Program-made: the position numbers and the translations under genes
Notes under the pieces: generated by a model
Database searches by the model: none
Seen by the model: the letters and a program-made list of their open reading frames with translations, nothing else
What the model was told of the DNA's origin: nothing
Source: Bacteroidota bacterium
Lineage (GTDB): Bacteria > Bacteroidota > Bacteroidia > Bacteroidales > PUMT01
NCBI GenBank assembly: GCA_003554865.1
Contig: PWHJ01000028.1
Location: 1 to 40,183, forward strand
Length of the DNA stretch: 40,183 bases
Reading direction: 5' to 3'
Part shown: piece by piece, positions 21,240 to 28,106 of the stretch
Position numbering within the stretch: the stretch's first letter is position 1
Layout: the number at the start of each line of letters is the position of its first letter

Positions 21240-22136
21240 ATGGAACCAAAACCCCTTAAGAAAAAAATTTGCTCTTGTTTTGTCTCTTTTCTGGCAGGTT
21301 TACCGGGAAAGCATACATTTTGCAAAACAGCAGAGTCAAAAGGCAAAGCACTGGCAGCAATGGTTCTCCTGTTAGCCTTTACCCACGGGGTAACAGCACA
21401 GGACCTGGATGTTCCCTATGTTCCCACCCCTAATAACGTGGTCGAAAAAATGCTGGATATTGCCAATGTAGGACCTGGAGATTACGTGATAGATCTGGGC
21501 TCGGGTGACGGACGCATAGTTATTGCCGCAGCAAAGCGGGGCGCCTTCGGTCACGGGGTAGACATTGATCCAAGGCGGGTTGAAGAAGGAGAAGATAATG
21601 CCCTGAAAGAAGGTGTAGCCAACAGAGTAATGTTTTTGGAAGAAAATATTTTTGAAACTGACTTCAGCAGGGCAAACGTTATAACAATGTACCTGCTGAG
21701 TTCAGTAAACCTTAAGCTTCGCCCCGATCTTCTTGAGAACCTGGACCCGGGAACACGTGTCGTATCGCATGACTTCAATATGGGCGACTGGGAAGCCGAT
21801 ATACATGTAAGGGTTGACAACCGTGACATCTATTACTGGGTTATACCGGCGGATGTGGAAGGCAACTGGAGCTGGAATTCTGGTGGAAACAATTTCTCAA
21901 TGTCAATCAAACAGGAGTTTCAGGAGATCACTGCCAAATCGGGAAACAGAAACCTGAAAATTGAAAACAGTGTACTTTCAGGTGAAAGGATCAGCTTTAC
22001 CGCTGTGAACACATCCAACGGACACAATTATGTCTACAGCGGAAAGGTTGAAGGAGATACGATAAACGGAACTGTTCAGATCCGCAGGGAGAACAGCAGA
22101 AGTGTGGAAAACTGGACGGCCACATCCGGTAAATAA
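21240..22136 (+). CDS. Exported class I SAM-dependent methyltransferase-like protein
   Basis: A 298-residue protein with a Rossmann methyltransferase domain (about 55-190): motif I VIDLGSGDGRIVIAAA (about 82-97), the acidic loop GVDIDPRRVEEG at the end of strand 2, then YLLSSVNLKLRPDLL and RVVSHDFNMGDWEAD. Before it is a hydrophobic segment ending in a signal-peptidase-like site (MVLLLAFTHGVTAQ, Met41 onward), so the enzyme appears to be exported. A C-terminal beta-rich domain (about 195-298) follows. The family is known from other bacteria with the same signal-like N terminus, but its substrate is not established. The start at 21240 gives an unusual 40-residue basic extension; Met41 is a possible real start. 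It is followed 15 bases later by a permease gene, so the two are one operon. Confidence 0.85.
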   Translation: MEPKPLKKKICSCFVSFLAGLPGKHTFCKTAESKGKALAAMVLLLAFTHGVTAQDLDVPYVPTPNNVVEKMLDIANVGPGDYVIDLGSGDGRIVIAAAKRGAFGHGVDIDPRRVEEGEDNALKEGVANRVMFLEENIFETDFSRANVITMYLLSSVNLKLRPDLLENLDPGTRVVSHDFNMGDWEADIHVRVDNRDIYYWVIPADVEGNWSWNSGGNNFSMSIKQEFQEITAKSGNRNLKIENSVLSGERISFTAVNTSNGHNYVYSGKVEGDTINGTVQIRRENSRSVENWTATSGK

Positions 22137-22151
22137 AAATTTATATTCAAT

Positions 22152-23510
22152 ATGCAGAAATCCATGAAGCCCTTTCCCGGAAAGGGACCGATACCTTCTT
22201 TTACCACCCTGAGTTCAATTGCAGTTATAGTGGGAATTGTTGTCGGCACCGGAATTTTTCGCCTGCCTCCGATCGTTGCCGGCCACTCGGCAAATGAATT
22301 TCAGTTTTTGTTTTTTTGGCTGGCAGGCGGCATTGTTTGCCTTCTGGGGGCACTTTGTTATGCAGAGCTTGCATCTTCCAAACCCGACGCAGGAGGTGAA
22401 TATCATTTCCTAAGGCAAGGTTTCGGGCCTGCACTGGGCTTTCTTTTTTCATGGGGAAGGATGACGGTGATCCAGACTGGCTCAATTGCCCTTGCTGCAT
22501 TTATACTGGGGGATTATGCCTCGTTGCTCTTAAATCTTGGAGAATACAGCTCAGCCATATATGCTGCCCTAACAGTAATACTGCTTACCGGCATAAATAT
22601 AATGGGAACTAAACATTCCCGAAAAATACAAATGGTATTCACTTCGCTGATAGTTTTAGTGATTATAGCGGTATCTGTATCGGGACTCGTTTCTGTACCG
22701 TCAGCCACTCCTGCAGAAACTGTTCAGGCTAACGGTGAAGGATCGATATTTTCACAGGGGGCGGCCGGGCTGGCCATGATATTCGTGCTTCTGACCTACG
22801 GGGGATGGAACGAAGCTGCCTACCTTTCAGGTGAGCTGATCAATGTTCGCAAAAATATAATTAAGGTCCTTATAACAGGAATCGGAGTTATAACAGGCCT
22901 CTATATTCTTGTAAACACTGCGTACCTCCATGTCCTGGGCCTTGAAAAACTAAAGGCGTCAGAAACCGTTGGGGCTGATCTTACCGGAGAGATCTTCGGT
23001 CCTGCCGGCTCTATTATTGTTACATTCATAATTATTGTGGCAGCCCTTTCTACCGCGAATGCTACCATAATAACGGGAGCCCGCACCAATTACGCCCTGG
23101 GCAGGGATTTTAAGCTGTTTAATTTTATAGGCAGCTGGAACACTTCCAAAAACACCCCTGTCAATGCACTGCTTCTTCAGGGTTTCATAACTCTGTTCCT
23201 GATAGGACTCGGGGCCTGGTCAAAAACGGCGGTTGAAACAATGGTTGACTACACTGCTCCGGTTTTCTGGTTTTTCATGCTGCTTACAACAATAACACTT
23301 TTTATATTCCGATACAGGTACTCTAAAGAAGACCTGCCTTACAAGGTACCCTTATACCCGGTGATTCCGCTGCTATTTTTGGCATCCTGCGGATATATGT
23401 TATACTCCAGTCTGACATTCACCGGAACAGGCGCCCTTATAGGCTCGCTTTTCCTGATTGCAGGCATACCTGTATATATTCTCTCACGTACCCGCAAAAA
23501 CAAATCATAA
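22152..23510 (+). CDS. APC-superfamily amino acid permease
   Basis: A 452-residue inner-membrane transporter with about 12 hydrophobic helices. The first helix holds the substrate-binding glycine run VVGTGIFRLPP, followed by the conserved CYAELASSKPDAGGEYHFLRQGFG, here seen as CYAELASSKP and GGEYHFLRQGFG. The helix-6 region FVLLTYGGWNEAAYLSGE matches LAT/basic amino acid antiporter relatives. It probably moves amino acids or polyamine-like compounds with protons or by exchange; the solute is unknown. It lies 15 bases after the exported methyltransferase gene in the same direction, a pairing that suggests a shared pathway or shared regulation. Confidence 0.9.
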   Translation: MQKSMKPFPGKGPIPSFTTLSSIAVIVGIVVGTGIFRLPPIVAGHSANEFQFLFFWLAGGIVCLLGALCYAELASSKPDAGGEYHFLRQGFGPALGFLFSWGRMTVIQTGSIALAAFILGDYASLLLNLGEYSSAIYAALTVILLTGINIMGTKHSRKIQMVFTSLIVLVIIAVSVSGLVSVPSATPAETVQANGEGSIFSQGAAGLAMIFVLLTYGGWNEAAYLSGELINVRKNIIKVLITGIGVITGLYILVNTAYLHVLGLEKLKASETVGADLTGEIFGPAGSIIVTFIIIVAALSTANATIITGARTNYALGRDFKLFNFIGSWNTSKNTPVNALLLQGFITLFLIGLGAWSKTAVETMVDYTAPVFWFFMLLTTITLFIFRYRYSKEDLPYKVPLYPVIPLLFLASCGYMLYSSLTFTGTGALIGSLFLIAGIPVYILSRTRKNKS

Positions 23511-23630: not shown

Positions 23631-25298
23631 ATGAGTTCCTCCCCCTTTCAGGAAGTTAAAATAATATCAAAAAAAAGCAGGCAAATAATCAATAAGATAT
23701 GTCCTCTTTTCATCCTGTTTATACTGGCAACACTCCTTAACTCATGTGAAAAAGAAGAGCCCGTGAGGACTCCTGTTGTTACAACGGCCGAAGTTTCTGA
23801 TATTACAGGCATTTCTGCAGTTGTAGGAGGTGAGGTAATAGATGACAGCGGATACGAAGTAACGGAATACGGCGTTTACTGGGGTACACATCACAGGCCC
23901 CGGATGTCGGGAAACAAGGTAGAGATGGGAAGCGGTACCGGCAAATTCAATGACACCCTGACCGGGCTTTCCGAAAATACATATTATTACATTAAAGCTT
24001 ATGCAACTAATGAAAGGGGGACCTCTTACGGTGACAAAAAGCGTTTTATTACCTCACCCACATATGCAACCGTAAAAACCCTCCCCGCTCTGTATATAAC
24101 CTCAAATTCGGCATATGTAAGAGGGTCTGTGACAGATGACGGGGGAACAGATGTAAAGGAACGCGGGATATACTGGAGCACCGAACCGGAAGCTGAAAAA
24201 ACAGGGGAAAAATTTACAATCGGAAGTGGTGAGGGAGATTTTGCTGACACACTGGACGGTCTTTCATATCAAACCGAATATTATATAAAGGCTTTTGCCA
24301 CGAACGAAAAGGGAACCGCATACGGAGATGAAAGAAGCTTTACCGCACTGGACATGCCTATTGTGAAAACCACACCCCCGGAAGATGTTACCTCAAGCTC
24401 AGCAATTCTGGGAGGCGATATAACTGATGAGGGAAGCTCTCAGGTTATCAGTTACGGCATATACCTGAGCACTTCACCGGATGCGGAGGAAACCGGACAA
24501 AAGAGAGAAATGGGGCACGGTACGGGAGAGTTCAGCTCCAAAATAACAGATATAACAGATAACACCACATATTTCGTAAAAGCCTACGCAACCAATCAGG
24601 AAGGCACCTCTTACGGTGCGGAATATGAATTTGAAACATGGGCACTGGAAAGCAGTGTAAGAGACATAGGGGGCAACAAATATAAAACAAAGGTTATAGG
24701 CGAGCAGAAATGGATGGCAGAAAACCTTGCAACTACGAGATTCCGTGACGGGTCATCAATAGAATATGTAGGTGAAGAAGACGATCAATGGAGGACCACC
24801 TCGCAGCCTTATTACGGCGTTTATGAAGATGAGGGCGACAATCAGTCGACATACGGGTTCCTTTACAACTGGTATGTTATAGAGGATGAAAGGTGTGTTT
24901 GCCCTGAAGGATGGAAGGTCCCATCAGAAGAAGACTGGCAGGAGCTTGAAAGGTATCTGGGTATGGATGATTATGAAATTGAACGTACTGAACTACGCGG
25001 AAGTGACCATGGCGGTAAATTAAAGGCAACAGGTACTGTAAGAGATCAAACCGGGTTCTGGCGTTCTCCAAATACCCTTGCAACAAATGAAACCGGTTTT
25101 ACTGCACTGCCCGGAGGATTTCGTGACCAGAGGGGGTATTCCGAACAGCTCCACTACATAGGAAACTGGTGGAGCTCAACCACGGCTGAAGCCGACAGCG
25201 CCTGGATCAGATACCTCTTTCACGACAGCGGCCAGATCGGCAGGTTTTACTTTCCCAAAAACATGGGTTTATCAATAAGATGTATTAAAAAGAAATAA
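23631..25298 (+). CDS. Lipoprotein with three FN3-like repeats and a C-terminal FISUMP domain
   Basis: A 555-residue surface lipoprotein. The lipobox lies at Cys39 (LLNSC). Three similar FN3-like repeats of about 95 residues follow (about 48-140, 141-240, 241-338); each has the pattern Y(G/R)xYW or YGIYLS, a GSGTGxF-type turn and YYIKAYATNExGT or a close variant. The last 200 residues form a Fibrobacter succinogenes major paralogous (FISUMP, TIGR02145) domain, with KWMAENLATTRFRDG, YGFLYNWYVI, CPEGWKVPSEEDWQELE, TGFTALPGGFRD, WWSSTT and a terminal SIRCIKK. The FISUMP fold is related to formylglycine-enzyme/C-type lectin-like modules. The protein is probably a surface adhesin or binder; no catalytic function can be claimed. 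It is monocistronic with a terminator downstream. Confidence 0.9.
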   Translation: MSSSPFQEVKIISKKSRQIINKICPLFILFILATLLNSCEKEEPVRTPVVTTAEVSDITGISAVVGGEVIDDSGYEVTEYGVYWGTHHRPRMSGNKVEMGSGTGKFNDTLTGLSENTYYYIKAYATNERGTSYGDKKRFITSPTYATVKTLPALYITSNSAYVRGSVTDDGGTDVKERGIYWSTEPEAEKTGEKFTIGSGEGDFADTLDGLSYQTEYYIKAFATNEKGTAYGDERSFTALDMPIVKTTPPEDVTSSSAILGGDITDEGSSQVISYGIYLSTSPDAEETGQKREMGHGTGEFSSKITDITDNTTYFVKAYATNQEGTSYGAEYEFETWALESSVRDIGGNKYKTKVIGEQKWMAENLATTRFRDGSSIEYVGEEDDQWRTTSQPYYGVYEDEGDNQSTYGFLYNWYVIEDERCVCPEGWKVPSEEDWQELERYLGMDDYEIERTELRGSDHGGKLKATGTVRDQTGFWRSPNTLATNETGFTALPGGFRDQRGYSEQLHYIGNWWSSTTAEADSAWIRYLFHDSGQIGRFYFPKNMGLSIRCIKKK

Positions 25299-25454: not shown

Positions 25455-26552
25455 CTACTCCTCTTCTTCCTCTTCAATTTCAAACGGTACATCATAGAGG
25501 ATTTTGACAATATTTTCAACAATTTCACTCCTGTCGATCGGGCGCACATTTGCAAGTACCGTTACAAAGTAGTCATCCTCGGGTAACCTTGTGGTAAGGC
25601 ACTGAAATCCGTTTGTCGACCCTCCGTGACTGTGGGTGAGTACACTGTCATTCTCATTCAGATCCATGTAACTGATACGCCACCCGTAACCGTAATCTGA
25701 AATGTTCGGCTCAAAAAGGAGCGACTGGTACTCTTCCTCAAGCAAAGTATTATTACGGATCGCCTCATCCCACAAAACCATATCCAATACGGTGGTATAC
25801 ATGTCGCCTGTGGCAAGGGCGGTTGACAAGTCCCTGAACTCAGCAAGAATAAGGCTGTCTTCTTCTATGGAATAACCGCCTGCCTTGTTATCCAATATGG
25901 TCACATGATCCACCAATCCGGTGTTATACATCCCTAAAGGATGAAGTATCCGTTCATCAAGCAGCTCGTCAAAGTCTTTCCCCGACACCTTTTCAAGAAT
26001 GTAACCCAGAAGGTAATATCCTATACTGCTGTAACTGTATTCCTCTCCGGGTTCAAATTCAAGGTCGAAATCCCAGAACACCTCGACAAAATCTCTGTGT
26101 TCCCAGGGTTGACGGCTGTAATCCGGCGAAAACTGCGGCTCAAATGGTCCATAATGCGGCATTCCGGAAGTATGGGAAAGAAGGTGATGAATTGTTATTA
26201 TATCACCCTGCGGCTCGGGATAATCCTCTATATATTCACGTATGGTATCATCCAGATCCATTTTCCCTTCGGCAACCTTCTGCATAACCAGCATTGAGGT
26301 GAACTGCTTTGATACGGAGGCTATCCTGAATTTGGTTTCAGGGCGGTTTGGCACATTATGCTCATGACTTGCATTGCCGAAGCCCCTGGCATATTCAACT
26401 TCACCTTCTTTTGCAACAACCACCGAACCGTTGAAAAGTTCTTTTTCATGGTAATGCTGCATCAGCTCATCAATTTTCCTTTCGGTCTCATCCTTGCAAC
26501 CTGTTACAACAAGGAATAAAATAATAATTGGTAAAATAAAAAAAAGTCTCAT
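25455..26552 (-). CDS. Class C beta-lactamase-like serine hydrolase lipoprotein
   Basis: A 365-residue member of the serine beta-lactamase/peptidase S12 family. The lipobox lies at Cys19 (VVTGC). The catalytic S-x-x-K is SVSK (Ser79, Lys82); the second motif reads YSS (in EYSYSSIGYYLLGY) where the family commonly has Y-x-N; the third, HGG, lies in HSHGGSTNGF. It ends in an unusual run of six glutamates. Family members include D-aminopeptidases, esterases and penicillin-binding-protein-like enzymes; beta-lactam resistance should not be assumed. It is a tandem paralogue of the next gene upstream (26667-28106) and shares a nearly identical central block with it. Confidence 0.9.
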   Translation of the reverse strand: MRLFFILPIIILFLVVTGCKDETERKIDELMQHYHEKELFNGSVVVAKEGEVEYARGFGNASHEHNVPNRPETKFRIASVSKQFTSMLVMQKVAEGKMDLDDTIREYIEDYPEPQGDIITIHHLLSHTSGMPHYGPFEPQFSPDYSRQPWEHRDFVEVFWDFDLEFEPGEEYSYSSIGYYLLGYILEKVSGKDFDELLDERILHPLGMYNTGLVDHVTILDNKAGGYSIEEDSLILAEFRDLSTALATGDMYTTVLDMVLWDEAIRNNTLLEEEYQSLLFEPNISDYGYGWRISYMDLNENDSVLTHSHGGSTNGFQCLTTRLPEDDYFVTVLANVRPIDRSEIVENIVKILYDVPFEIEEEEEE

Positions 26553-26666
26553 AATTTCCTGTTTAGTTTAAATTTCAATTAATCAAAAAAATGAACATAG
26601 TTTCGCTTACTTCCAATATTTTTAAATTTCGGGTAACTCAGGCTAACAAAATAACAGGCTCACCGG

Positions 26667-28106
26667 CTAATTTAAATCCTCTGCCCTTCTGAATCTCCTA
26701 AGTATCCCCCTGTGCCCGGGATCTATCAAAAGCCCCTTAGCATAATATTTAACAGCTTCTTCCGCTTCACCATTTGCATAATATGCATTACCGGCAAGCA
26801 TGTGTGCATTGGCCGATTCATCGTGAAGCTCAACTGCCAGCTCCCCGAAAGCGACAGCTTCCCCGGTACGATCAATGCCGATGAGATCTGAAACCAGACT
26901 GCTGAGCTGACCGAGTCTTACATCATAAGTTTCAGAACGCTCTTCGGAAAGATAGCGGAAATGAGCTACCGCTTCATCCACCCCTTCCTCATCCAGAACG
27001 CGTGCTGTGGCTATTTTTGACGAACGGCTGAAATCCACAGGTCTGTCATTGAGTATATTTATTATATTGTTGGTTATACCTGTTGTTGGTCCCGGACGAG
27101 CATTTGACAGAACTGTAATCAGATACCTCTCCTCCGGCAATCTTGTTGTCAGGCAATTGAACCCGTTGGTGCCACCCGAATGCCGGTGGGTCAGGATACT
27201 GTCATTATCGTTTATATCCCTGTAGTCAACAAACCAGCCATAACCGTAATTTGAAAGATTAGGTGTAAAAATAAGAGACTGGTACTCTTCGTCAAGCAGG
27301 GTATTGTCATAAAGAGCCTTATCCCACAAAACAATATCCTTAACTGTGGTATACATATCGCCCGTTGCCAGGGCTGTTGACATATCTCTGAACTCGGCAT
27401 TCAAAAAGCTAGCCAGTGAATGATTATAACCGTTTGCCCTGTTTTTAAGGATACTTACATGGTTGTCAATACCTGTATTATACATCCCGAGCGGGTGGAG
27501 TATCCTTTCATCAAGCAGCTCGTCAAAATCTTTGCCGGATACTATTTCAAGAATGTATCCCAGAAGGTAATATCCTAAACTGCTATAACTGTATTCCTCT
27601 CCGGGTTCAAACTGAAGGTCGAAATCCCAGAACACCTCGACAAAATCTCTGTGTTCCCAGGGTTGACGGCTGTAATCCGGCGAAAACCGGGGCTCAAATG
27701 GTCCATAATGCGGCATTCCGGAAGTATGGGAAAGAAGGTGATGAATTGTTATTATATCACCCTGCGGCCCGGGATAATCCTCTATATATTCACGAATGGG
27801 ATCATCCAGATCCATTTTTCCCTCTGCTACTTTCTGCATAACCAGCATTGAGGTAAACTGCTTTGAAACGGAGGCTATCCTGAACTTGGTTTCAGGGGTG
27901 TTTTTTACCCCCAGTTCATAATTGGCATATCCGAAGCCCCCGGCATACAAAATTTCTCCATCCTTAGCCACCACAACGGCCCCGTTAAAATTGTTATGTT
28001 CATGGTAATCATTTACCAATTGATCGATTTGTTGTTCGGCGGTTTGGGTAAAAGCCGGCATTACTGTAAACAGAACAACAATAAATGAAAGGTACGATTT
28101 TATCAT
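26667..28106 (-). CDS. Class C beta-lactamase-like serine hydrolase with C-terminal TPR region
   Basis: A 479-residue paralogue of the downstream hydrolase. It has a cleavable signal peptide (ending PAFTQ, without a lipobox), the same SVSK nucleophile motif (Ser79, Lys82), YSS in EYSYSSLGYYLLGY and the HSG of HRHSGGTNGF. After the catalytic domain (about 25-370) comes a helical extension with TPR-like repeats (about 385-475, including AVELHDESANAHMLAGNAYY and EEAVKYYAKGLLIDPGHRG). It is probably periplasmic, whereas its partner is lipid-anchored. The two genes are separated by 114 bases and may be co-transcribed. The substrate is unknown; peptides, esters or peptidoglycan fragments are possible. 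Confidence 0.9.
   Translation of the reverse strand: MIKSYLSFIVVLFTVMPAFTQTAEQQIDQLVNDYHEHNNFNGAVVVAKDGEILYAGGFGYANYELGVKNTPETKFRIASVSKQFTSMLVMQKVAEGKMDLDDPIREYIEDYPGPQGDIITIHHLLSHTSGMPHYGPFEPRFSPDYSRQPWEHRDFVEVFWDFDLQFEPGEEYSYSSLGYYLLGYILEIVSGKDFDELLDERILHPLGMYNTGIDNHVSILKNRANGYNHSLASFLNAEFRDMSTALATGDMYTTVKDIVLWDKALYDNTLLDEEYQSLIFTPNLSNYGYGWFVDYRDINDNDSILTHRHSGGTNGFNCLTTRLPEERYLITVLSNARPGPTTGITNNIINILNDRPVDFSRSSKIATARVLDEEGVDEAVAHFRYLSEERSETYDVRLGQLSSLVSDLIGIDRTGEAVAFGELAVELHDESANAHMLAGNAYYANGEAEEAVKYYAKGLLIDPGHRGILRRFRRAEDLN

Follow-up and report, generated by a model that had tools for sequence, protein, structure and literature searches.

The gene pair and its protein domains

The window analysed in this work is a stretch of 40,183 nucleotides from a Bacteroidota bacterium (contig PWHJ01000028.1, positions 1 to 40,183), and its source assembly comprises 3.2 Mb in 243 contigs. 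Two genes on the forward strand are the subject of this work. The first is an open reading frame (ORF) at 21240-22136 that encodes a predicted exported methyltransferase dependent on S-adenosylmethionine (SAM). The second follows after 15 bases at 22152-23510 and encodes a transporter of the APC superfamily that resembles L-type amino acid transporters (LATs). The nearest named relatives of the methyltransferase gene are in Bacteroidales, Mariniphaga, and Balneolales assemblies. The features of both genes are as follows.

21240..22136, + strand: gene of the predicted exported methyltransferase, an ORF of 298 aa with the stop codon included in the coordinates
21240..21398, + strand: predicted signal peptide, residues 1-53, with a cleavage-like site VTA/Q, from direct reading of the sequence
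21411..21851, + strand: aKMT/FAM173-like methyltransferase domain, residues 58-204, from the matches to PDB 5bxy and aKMT 5fa8 and from Foldseek
21492..21515, + strand: SAM-binding motif I DLGSGDGR, residues 85-92, from conservation in alignment A3
21852..22133, + strand: C-terminal avidin-like eight-stranded barrel, residues 205-298, from model m46f3f3afe8e6 and VIA-align
22152..23510, + strand: partner transporter of the APC superfamily, LAT-like, 452 aa, from PF13520, solved-structure matches, and adjacency across phyla

An earlier note on this DNA, made from the sequence alone, had described an intact SAM motif, a signal-peptide-like N terminus, an extra beta-rich C-terminal domain, and an APC permease 15 bases downstream. 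These descriptions are all borne out. Signal-like N termini, the SAM motif, an alignable C-terminal domain, and a neighbouring permease also recur across phyla.

The methyltransferase belongs to the class I (seven-beta-strand) SAM methyltransferases by its Pfam gathering score, its fold, and its SAM motif I. The Pfam class I models above their cut-offs are PrmA (34.8 against 22) and Methyltransf_31 (34.3 against 27). The solved structures closest to the methyltransferase are 5bxy from Salinibacter ruber (expect value, E, 7.6e-45) and the aKMT 5fa8 from Sulfolobus islandicus (E 2.2e-34). The Foldseek comparison with 5bxy gave E 2.9e-20 and a root-mean-square deviation (rmsd) of 1.1, with 150 columns and 53% identity. 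In the model of the whole protein, the block values of the predicted local distance difference test (pLDDT) are at least 92 from residue 61 onward, and eight strands are present in the C-terminal part.

Conservation was counted in alignment A3, which has 94 rows and holds only the long signal-bearing form, so that the counts describe the chosen rows. It contains 73 of the 80 named loci; those omitted are L122 (contig edge), L137 (no signal), L058, L059, L060, L065, and L089. Also not in A3 are L008, L009, L014, L015, L033, L040, and the short forms L041-L048. D85, L86, G87, G89, D90, G91, and R92 of motif I are invariant, S88 is kept in 93 of the 94 rows, and position 108 is acidic (Asp or Glu) in every row. 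A degenerate SAM pocket was rejected because motif I and the acidic residue 108 are both kept. Conservation also extends beyond the pocket to T149-Y151-L152-L153...N157 and R173...S176...W184, which are common to aKMT (Y151 is Phe there).

The aKMT of Sulfolobus islandicus (aKMT4; 5fa8/5fad/5jwj) has the same methyltransferase domain, with 44-46% identity in the structural match, and its entries are SAM and SAH (S-adenosyl-L-homocysteine) complexes by title. Both proteins share the VPYVPTP start, motif I, and the M-Y/F-LL and SH motifs. The aKMT is an archaeal protein of 161 residues whose solved chain is without a signal or an extra domain, whereas the window protein has a predicted signal peptide, an avidin-like barrel, and a transporter partner. 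Two alphaproteobacterial proteins (L222 and L223) carry a tandem pair of aKMT-like domains preceded by a hydrophobic segment at the N terminus, and their genomes have no partner transporter at E<=1e-70.

The closest structure, 5BXY, is titled 'RNA methyltransferase from Salinibacter ruber in complex with S-adenosyl-L-homocysteine', and its deposited chain has 158 residues without a signal peptide. A 150-residue stretch of this chain is exactly contained in an ORF (L046/L196) with a predicted signal peptide MSRLRFLSVVLLALGLLLGHGPRSGYAQ/Q..., directly downstream of an APC gene of the partner-transporter clade. Since the stretch is identical to part of this signal-bearing ORF, the SAH-bound crystal structure is that of the domain of a family member that is apparently exported. 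The Salinibacter ORF differs from the window protein in that it has no avidin-like domain and in that the gene order is reversed. The name 'RNA methyltransferase' disagrees with the likely compartment, given the signal peptide of this ORF. The open-access papers that matched 5BXY concern, by title, other subjects.

The C-terminal part (residues about 205-298) was also modelled alone and forms eight strands with a mean pLDDT of 90. Foldseek with this model returned only weak matches, none at E<=0.001. In VIA-align, which is a second look at Foldseek's own match list, avidins came first, and the best match was a monomeric streptavidin (Z 12.6, rmsd 1.9 over 90 residues). The modelled part is avidin-like by fold, with no claim that it belongs to the avidin family or binds biotin. 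This part of the window methyltransferase has no Pfam match, and no avidin model is among the 25 families listed (of 65) for the 94 relatives. C-terminal domains that align to this barrel recur in relatives across phyla. The aKMT4 enzyme is described as lacking substrate recognition domains in passages of PMC4639711, and the barrel may provide such a domain here.

The transporter belongs to the APC superfamily through PF13520 (AA_permease_2; E 3.5e-50, 171.6 against a gathering score of 27). It is called LAT-like only, with 178.9 bits against the cut-off of 701.8 for TIGR00911 (L-type amino acid transporter). The nearest solved structures are 9h76/6f2g (6f2g E 2.7e-52), which we take to be BasC, followed by eukaryotic LATs such as b0,+AT and LAT1. 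BasC and the eukaryotic LATs (SLC7) are thus of the same transporter family as the window protein. BasC is described as exchanging Ala, Ser, and Cys; the window transporter is coupled to a predicted exported methyltransferase.

Predicted export of the methyltransferase

By direct reading, the N terminus of the window protein (...SKGKALAAMVLLLAFTHGVTA / QDLD) resembles a signal peptide whose cleavage-like site lies in front of Gln54. Its basic n-region of about 36 residues is unusually long, but the two same-genus relatives also have long ones (about 29 residues). Signal peptides are visible by eye in all 14 full-length relatives from the same genus and family. The 80 named loci span Bacteroidota, alpha-, beta-, and gammaproteobacteria, delta-type groups, cyanobacteria, and a few others. 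A crude scorer found a signal in 74 of them; among its six misses, four signals look real by eye, one protein is cut at a contig end, and L137 seems to have no signal.

A larger comparison used 306 ORFs with a domain score >90, which gave 251 non-redundant relatives and, after three without an N terminus were left unscored, 248. The controls were 21 other methyltransferase ORFs with a domain score <50. With a relaxed scorer, a signal-like N terminus is present in 241 of the 248 relatives against 8 of the 21 controls; a stricter scorer is positive for 3 of 20 control methyltransferases. The seven relatives scored as having none are L076, L119, and L169, which seem by eye to bear a signal, the contig-cut L122, and L137, L184, and L187, which are apparently without one. 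In a comparison that does not depend on the scorer, the mature part is free of cysteine in 217 of the 248 relatives against 1 of the 21 controls (Fisher 1.8e-15, with rows that are not independent), and cysteine makes up 0.09% of the mature parts overall in the relatives against 1.8% in the controls.

Different types of signal precede the same domain. A loose lipobox pattern occurs in 23 of the 241 signal-bearing relatives, of which some are surely false, and the lipobox is convincing by eye in at least L096, L201, L208, L212, and L216. A twin-arginine-like motif occurs in only 6 of the 241, and twin-arginine (Tat) export of a cofactor-loaded enzyme was therefore rejected as a general rule. 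A false signal from misassigned start codons was also rejected, since the hydrophobic core and the cleavage-like site are kept across differing n-regions. The variety of signal types in front of one domain suggests that export itself is what is selected. Export of the methyltransferase, as predicted from these N termini, is well supported by sequence, and the scarcity of cysteine lends indirect support to a location outside the cytoplasm.

The three apparently signal-less proteins (L137, L184, and L187) could be a cytosolic offshoot that can be compared with the exported relatives. All three are in genomes without the partner-transporter clade, as would suit the module proposed below, although the number is small.

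Pairing of the two genes across genomes

The methyltransferase was found at E<=1e-100 in 14 of the 15 genomes from the same genus and family, and the 15th has only a fragment. The transporter adjoins and follows the methyltransferase at all 13 of these loci with room for it; the locus without room, L150, ends 2 bases past the match. A pairing limited to this strain was therefore rejected.

Transporters were also searched for in whole genomes of three samples, to avoid looking only beside methyltransferases. The samples consist of 395 genomes from the same phylum, 349 from Pseudomonadota, and 190 from Alphaproteobacteria. At most four candidates were scored per genome in the first two samples, so that a genome rich in APC proteins could hide one. 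In the sample from the same phylum, the transporter (E<=1e-70, the weakest at 1.1e-122) is present in 17 genomes and the methyltransferase (E<=1e-22) in 21. All 17 transporter genomes have the methyltransferase as a same-strand neighbour (Fisher 2e-26 if the genomes were independent). The Pseudomonadota sample has the transporter (E<=1e-100) in four genomes, all with the methyltransferase, which is present in eight genomes in all. The genes are adjacent in three of the four, and the exception is G444, the sample centre. The Alphaproteobacteria sample has the transporter in three genomes, adjacent in all three, one of which is already in the Pseudomonadota sample.

When the three samples are pooled, the transporter clade is present in 23 genomes, all 23 of which have the methyltransferase and 22 of which have both genes as same-strand neighbours. 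Without the sample centres G000 and G444, the genes are adjacent in 21 of 21 genomes. The paired genomes include families f1, f29, f36, f50, and f62 and at least five proteobacterial genomes, among which relatives are not independent. The dependence is one-sided: the transporter at E<=1e-100 never occurs without the methyltransferase in the three samples, but the converse fails. The survey of genomes that the earlier note had proposed thus places the pair well beyond one strain, and the finding is real and wider than that note could know.

Gene order varies in a set that was partly collected through either gene. The methyltransferase comes first in 133 long-form genes, and the transporter comes first in 12 short-form and 6 long-form genes. 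Chance neighbours were rejected on the three genome samples and the reversed gene order. Among 149 loci, the most frequent clusters are the methyltransferase (143), ORFs taken as antisense to it (117), and the transporter (88). The next clusters reach at most 14 loci, and no recurrent third gene was found across phyla in this set. Methyltransferases were located by tblastn, as a caller of longest non-overlapping ORFs misses them at several loci. Functional coupling of the methyltransferase and the transporter is well supported by these genomic comparisons.

The pair is patchy in its distribution, since 25 genomes of the same order outside the family gave no strong methyltransferase match (best 3.9e-5). 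Of the 80 named loci, 37 have the fetched gene in a pair, 3 contain another pair, 13 end too early to tell, and 27 have the gene unpaired. In the methyltransferase tree, which like the transporter tree below was built with FastTree, pairing changes at least 24 times against 58.7 for shuffled labels. Pairing is thus clustered, yet it was often gained or lost, or was missed in drafts.

In some betaproteobacterial loci, a single transporter gene follows a row of two to six divergent methyltransferase genes; in G368, six methyltransferases occur with one transporter (E<=1e-70). We infer that what these paralogues have in common is the cofactor pair SAM/SAH and not a particular product.

Some neighbouring genes were also recorded. 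Beside betaproteobacterial arrays, L069:3083-4690 (-) and L128:3285-4865 (-) each carry a divergent gene whose product combines a spermine/spermidine-synthase domain (Pfam PF01564, E 9.3e-8 and 2.7e-9) with a hydrophobic N terminus. An ORF cluster taken to overlap this gene on the other strand is in 14 of the 149 loci. In the window, an exported-looking protein with repeated modules is encoded at 23631-25298 (+), adjoins the transporter in both same-genus relatives too, and has a C-terminal domain that is presumably of the fibrobacter-major-paralogous type. Two similar adjacent genes lie further downstream at 25455-28106 (-) and encode apparently exported serine-hydrolase-like proteins, which we take to be beta-lactamase-fold-like.

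Proposed function and alternative explanations

Enzymes exported by Sec arrive without cofactor, and LATs carry neutral amino acids. LATs are described in passages of PMC6472337 as asymmetric amino-acid exchangers. Among the amino acid permeases of the APC superfamily, yeast Sam3 and Candida Gap4 are described as SAM transporters in passages of PMC5177730. Both take SAM up into the cytoplasm. To our knowledge, neither has a methyltransferase partner.

FAM173A and FAM173B (ANT-KMT and ATPSc-KMT) are related methyltransferases in a compartment of bacterial origin to which SAM is brought across a membrane. They act on the matrix side behind an uncleaved N-terminal anchor according to passages of a 2022 review (PMC9006661), whereas export is predicted here. 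The same passages report aKMT homologues in alphaproteobacteria and suggest a bacterial origin of the FAM173 enzymes; export of bacterial homologues is not mentioned in those passages, which cover 12 of 24 places. The mitochondrial SAM carrier is SLC25A26, which is of a family unrelated to the LAT-like transporter and imports SAM rather than exporting it.

We propose that the pair is a conserved module for methylation in the envelope, in which the transporter exchanges SAM for SAH, a reading that we put just short of an even chance. The methyltransferase would be exported mainly via Sec, unfolded and without cofactor. It would then fold in the periplasm; members with a lipobox would do so on a lipid anchor. 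Its aKMT-type domain would most likely methylate lysines of envelope proteins, given the lysine methylation by the related aKMT and FAM173A/B (PMC5828452, PMC9006661, PMC4639711). Proteins that have the avidin-like barrel would use it as a substrate-recognition or docking domain. The LAT-like exchanger of the inner membrane would move SAM out and SAH (or a related amino acid) back in, and one transporter would supply the cofactor to one or several exported methyltransferases. A Sec-exported enzyme without cofactor, the exchange by LATs, and the SAM permeases Sam3 and Gap4 together make a transporter that supplies SAM and removes SAH the simplest account. The signal peptides, the intact SAM pocket, and the tight genomic coupling are direct readings of the sequences. 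The earlier note had also raised the export of SAM and its movement by the permease; predicted export with an intact SAM pocket and a recurrent pairing stands from its overall reading, and we infer, as this module would have it, the periplasmic activity, the lysine target, the SAM/SAH cargo, and the role of the barrel.

Several points weigh against this module. The best NCBIfam model for the methyltransferase is NF041081 (archaeal protein-lysine methyltransferase; E 3.5e-35), whose equivalog cut-off is not reached (121.1 bits against 200), so that the protein is called aKMT-like only; the lysine specificity is suggested by homology. The signal scorer is crude, with 8 of the 21 controls positive. 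We know of no report of free SAM in a periplasm. Transmembrane segment 6 of the transporter reads TYGGWN, which we take to resemble neutral-amino-acid LATs and to be without the Asp of cationic ones, and no alignment column was found to be diagnostic of the transporter clade against seven other transporters. Sam3 and Gap4 belong to another APC branch than this transporter and are SAM importers.

The clade limit of E<=1e-100 was chosen after the hits were seen. Six more Pseudomonadota have a transporter at E<=1e-70 and no methyltransferase; these six transporters have 35-41% identity and E 8.4e-98 to 2.9e-80, against 3.7e-106 for the weakest paired one. In the transporter tree (87 rows: 79 paired, 7 unpaired, and 1 on the opposite strand), the paired label needs three changes. 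The seven unpaired rows need two changes, and because one of these is L173 of G444, the six weaker unpaired transporters are on one side of a branch.

The transporter clade is absent from 10 of the 33 methyltransferase-bearing genomes of the three samples, and in 8 of these 10 the N terminus of the methyltransferase is still signal-like or hydrophobic. The transporter would thus be dispensable there, replaced by another, or missed in drafts. The fetched methyltransferase is unpaired or at a contig end in 39 genomes, 18 of which have no transporter match at E<=1e-60. The other 21 have a transporter elsewhere at the same limit, in 23 places; 20 were examined and 19 adjoin a methyltransferase, the exception being L173.

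The alternative that survives best is that a small amine or amino acid is what the exported enzyme methylates outside the cytoplasm, that the transporter imports the methylated product or exports the acceptor, and that SAM comes from lysed neighbours or an unknown exporter. A transporter of an amino-acid family with neutral amino acids as the usual cargo would suit this, as would its constant company of a methyltransferase (23/23 genomes at E<=1e-100 in the three samples). The closest characterised relatives, aKMT and FAM173, methylate proteins, however, and up to six divergent methyltransferases per transporter point to something common to all. The supply of SAM would still need an explanation, and we consider this alternative unlikely.

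It is rather improbable that the methyltransferase-like protein is no longer an enzyme and instead binds and scavenges SAM and SAH in the periplasm, for the transporter to take up. An exported binding protein beside a transporter is a familiar layout, and only the SAM pocket would be required; the 5BXY entry contains SAH by its title. The conservation exceeds the pocket, however, in the two aKMT-like stretches from T149 to N157 and from R173 to W184. LAT-type exchangers use no binding proteins, and several paralogues per transporter would be odd.

The methyltransferase might act on the transporter itself or on a complex with it, much as a mitochondrial carrier is the target of ANT-KMT (FAM173A). 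The tight coupling of both genes fits, and passages of PMC9006661 describe animal FAM173A/B as methylating membrane proteins, one of them a transporter. We regard this as a slim chance, as it leaves both the arrays of many methyltransferases with one transporter and the source of SAM unexplained.

The earlier note had allowed that the protein is not exported; a methyltransferase that stays in or faces the cytoplasm from an uncleaved anchor, paired through ordinary amino-acid metabolism, would suit the long n-region of the window protein and the 8 scorer-positive controls of 21, but is made highly improbable by the signal peptides with cleavage-like sites, some convincing lipoboxes, the near-absence of cysteine, and the positive-inside rule, by which positive residues before a single hydrophobic segment place the domain outside. 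Its precedent is the hydrophobic N terminus of FAM173 enzymes, which act in the matrix according to passages of PMC9006661.

Among the open-access papers listed for exported or periplasmic methyltransferases, SAM transporters or exporters, FAM173 and aKMT enzymes, and their combination with APC transporters, none describes the module by its title or the start of its abstract; subscription papers lie outside this search. A further search on SAM transporters or exporters found no paper. The term 'secreted methyltransferase' appears in a few of the papers listed, two of which are reviews on host chromatin or epigenetics in infection.

The findings in this work bear on where SAM is used in bacteria. 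SAM is regarded as a cytosolic cofactor, and the methylation of bacterial envelope proteins is assumed to precede export. It is possible, though we rate it somewhat below even, that SAM is supplied and used outside the cytoplasm in bacteria of several phyla. A dedicated LAT-like exchanger would then send SAM out and recover SAH, and one or more secreted aKMT-type enzymes, many of them with avidin-like recognition domains, would methylate envelope proteins with it. If true, this would be the first dedicated SAM supply line to the bacterial periplasm and an envelope counterpart of the mitochondrial arrangement of SAM carrier and FAM173. Both of these views would be overturned by an exported SAM methyltransferase that is widespread and has its own transporter. 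Such a pair would also reveal a clade of bacterial transporters for SAM and SAH, assign a role to genes now known by general family names alone, and bear on the origin of the mitochondrial FAM173 enzymes and their SAM supply.

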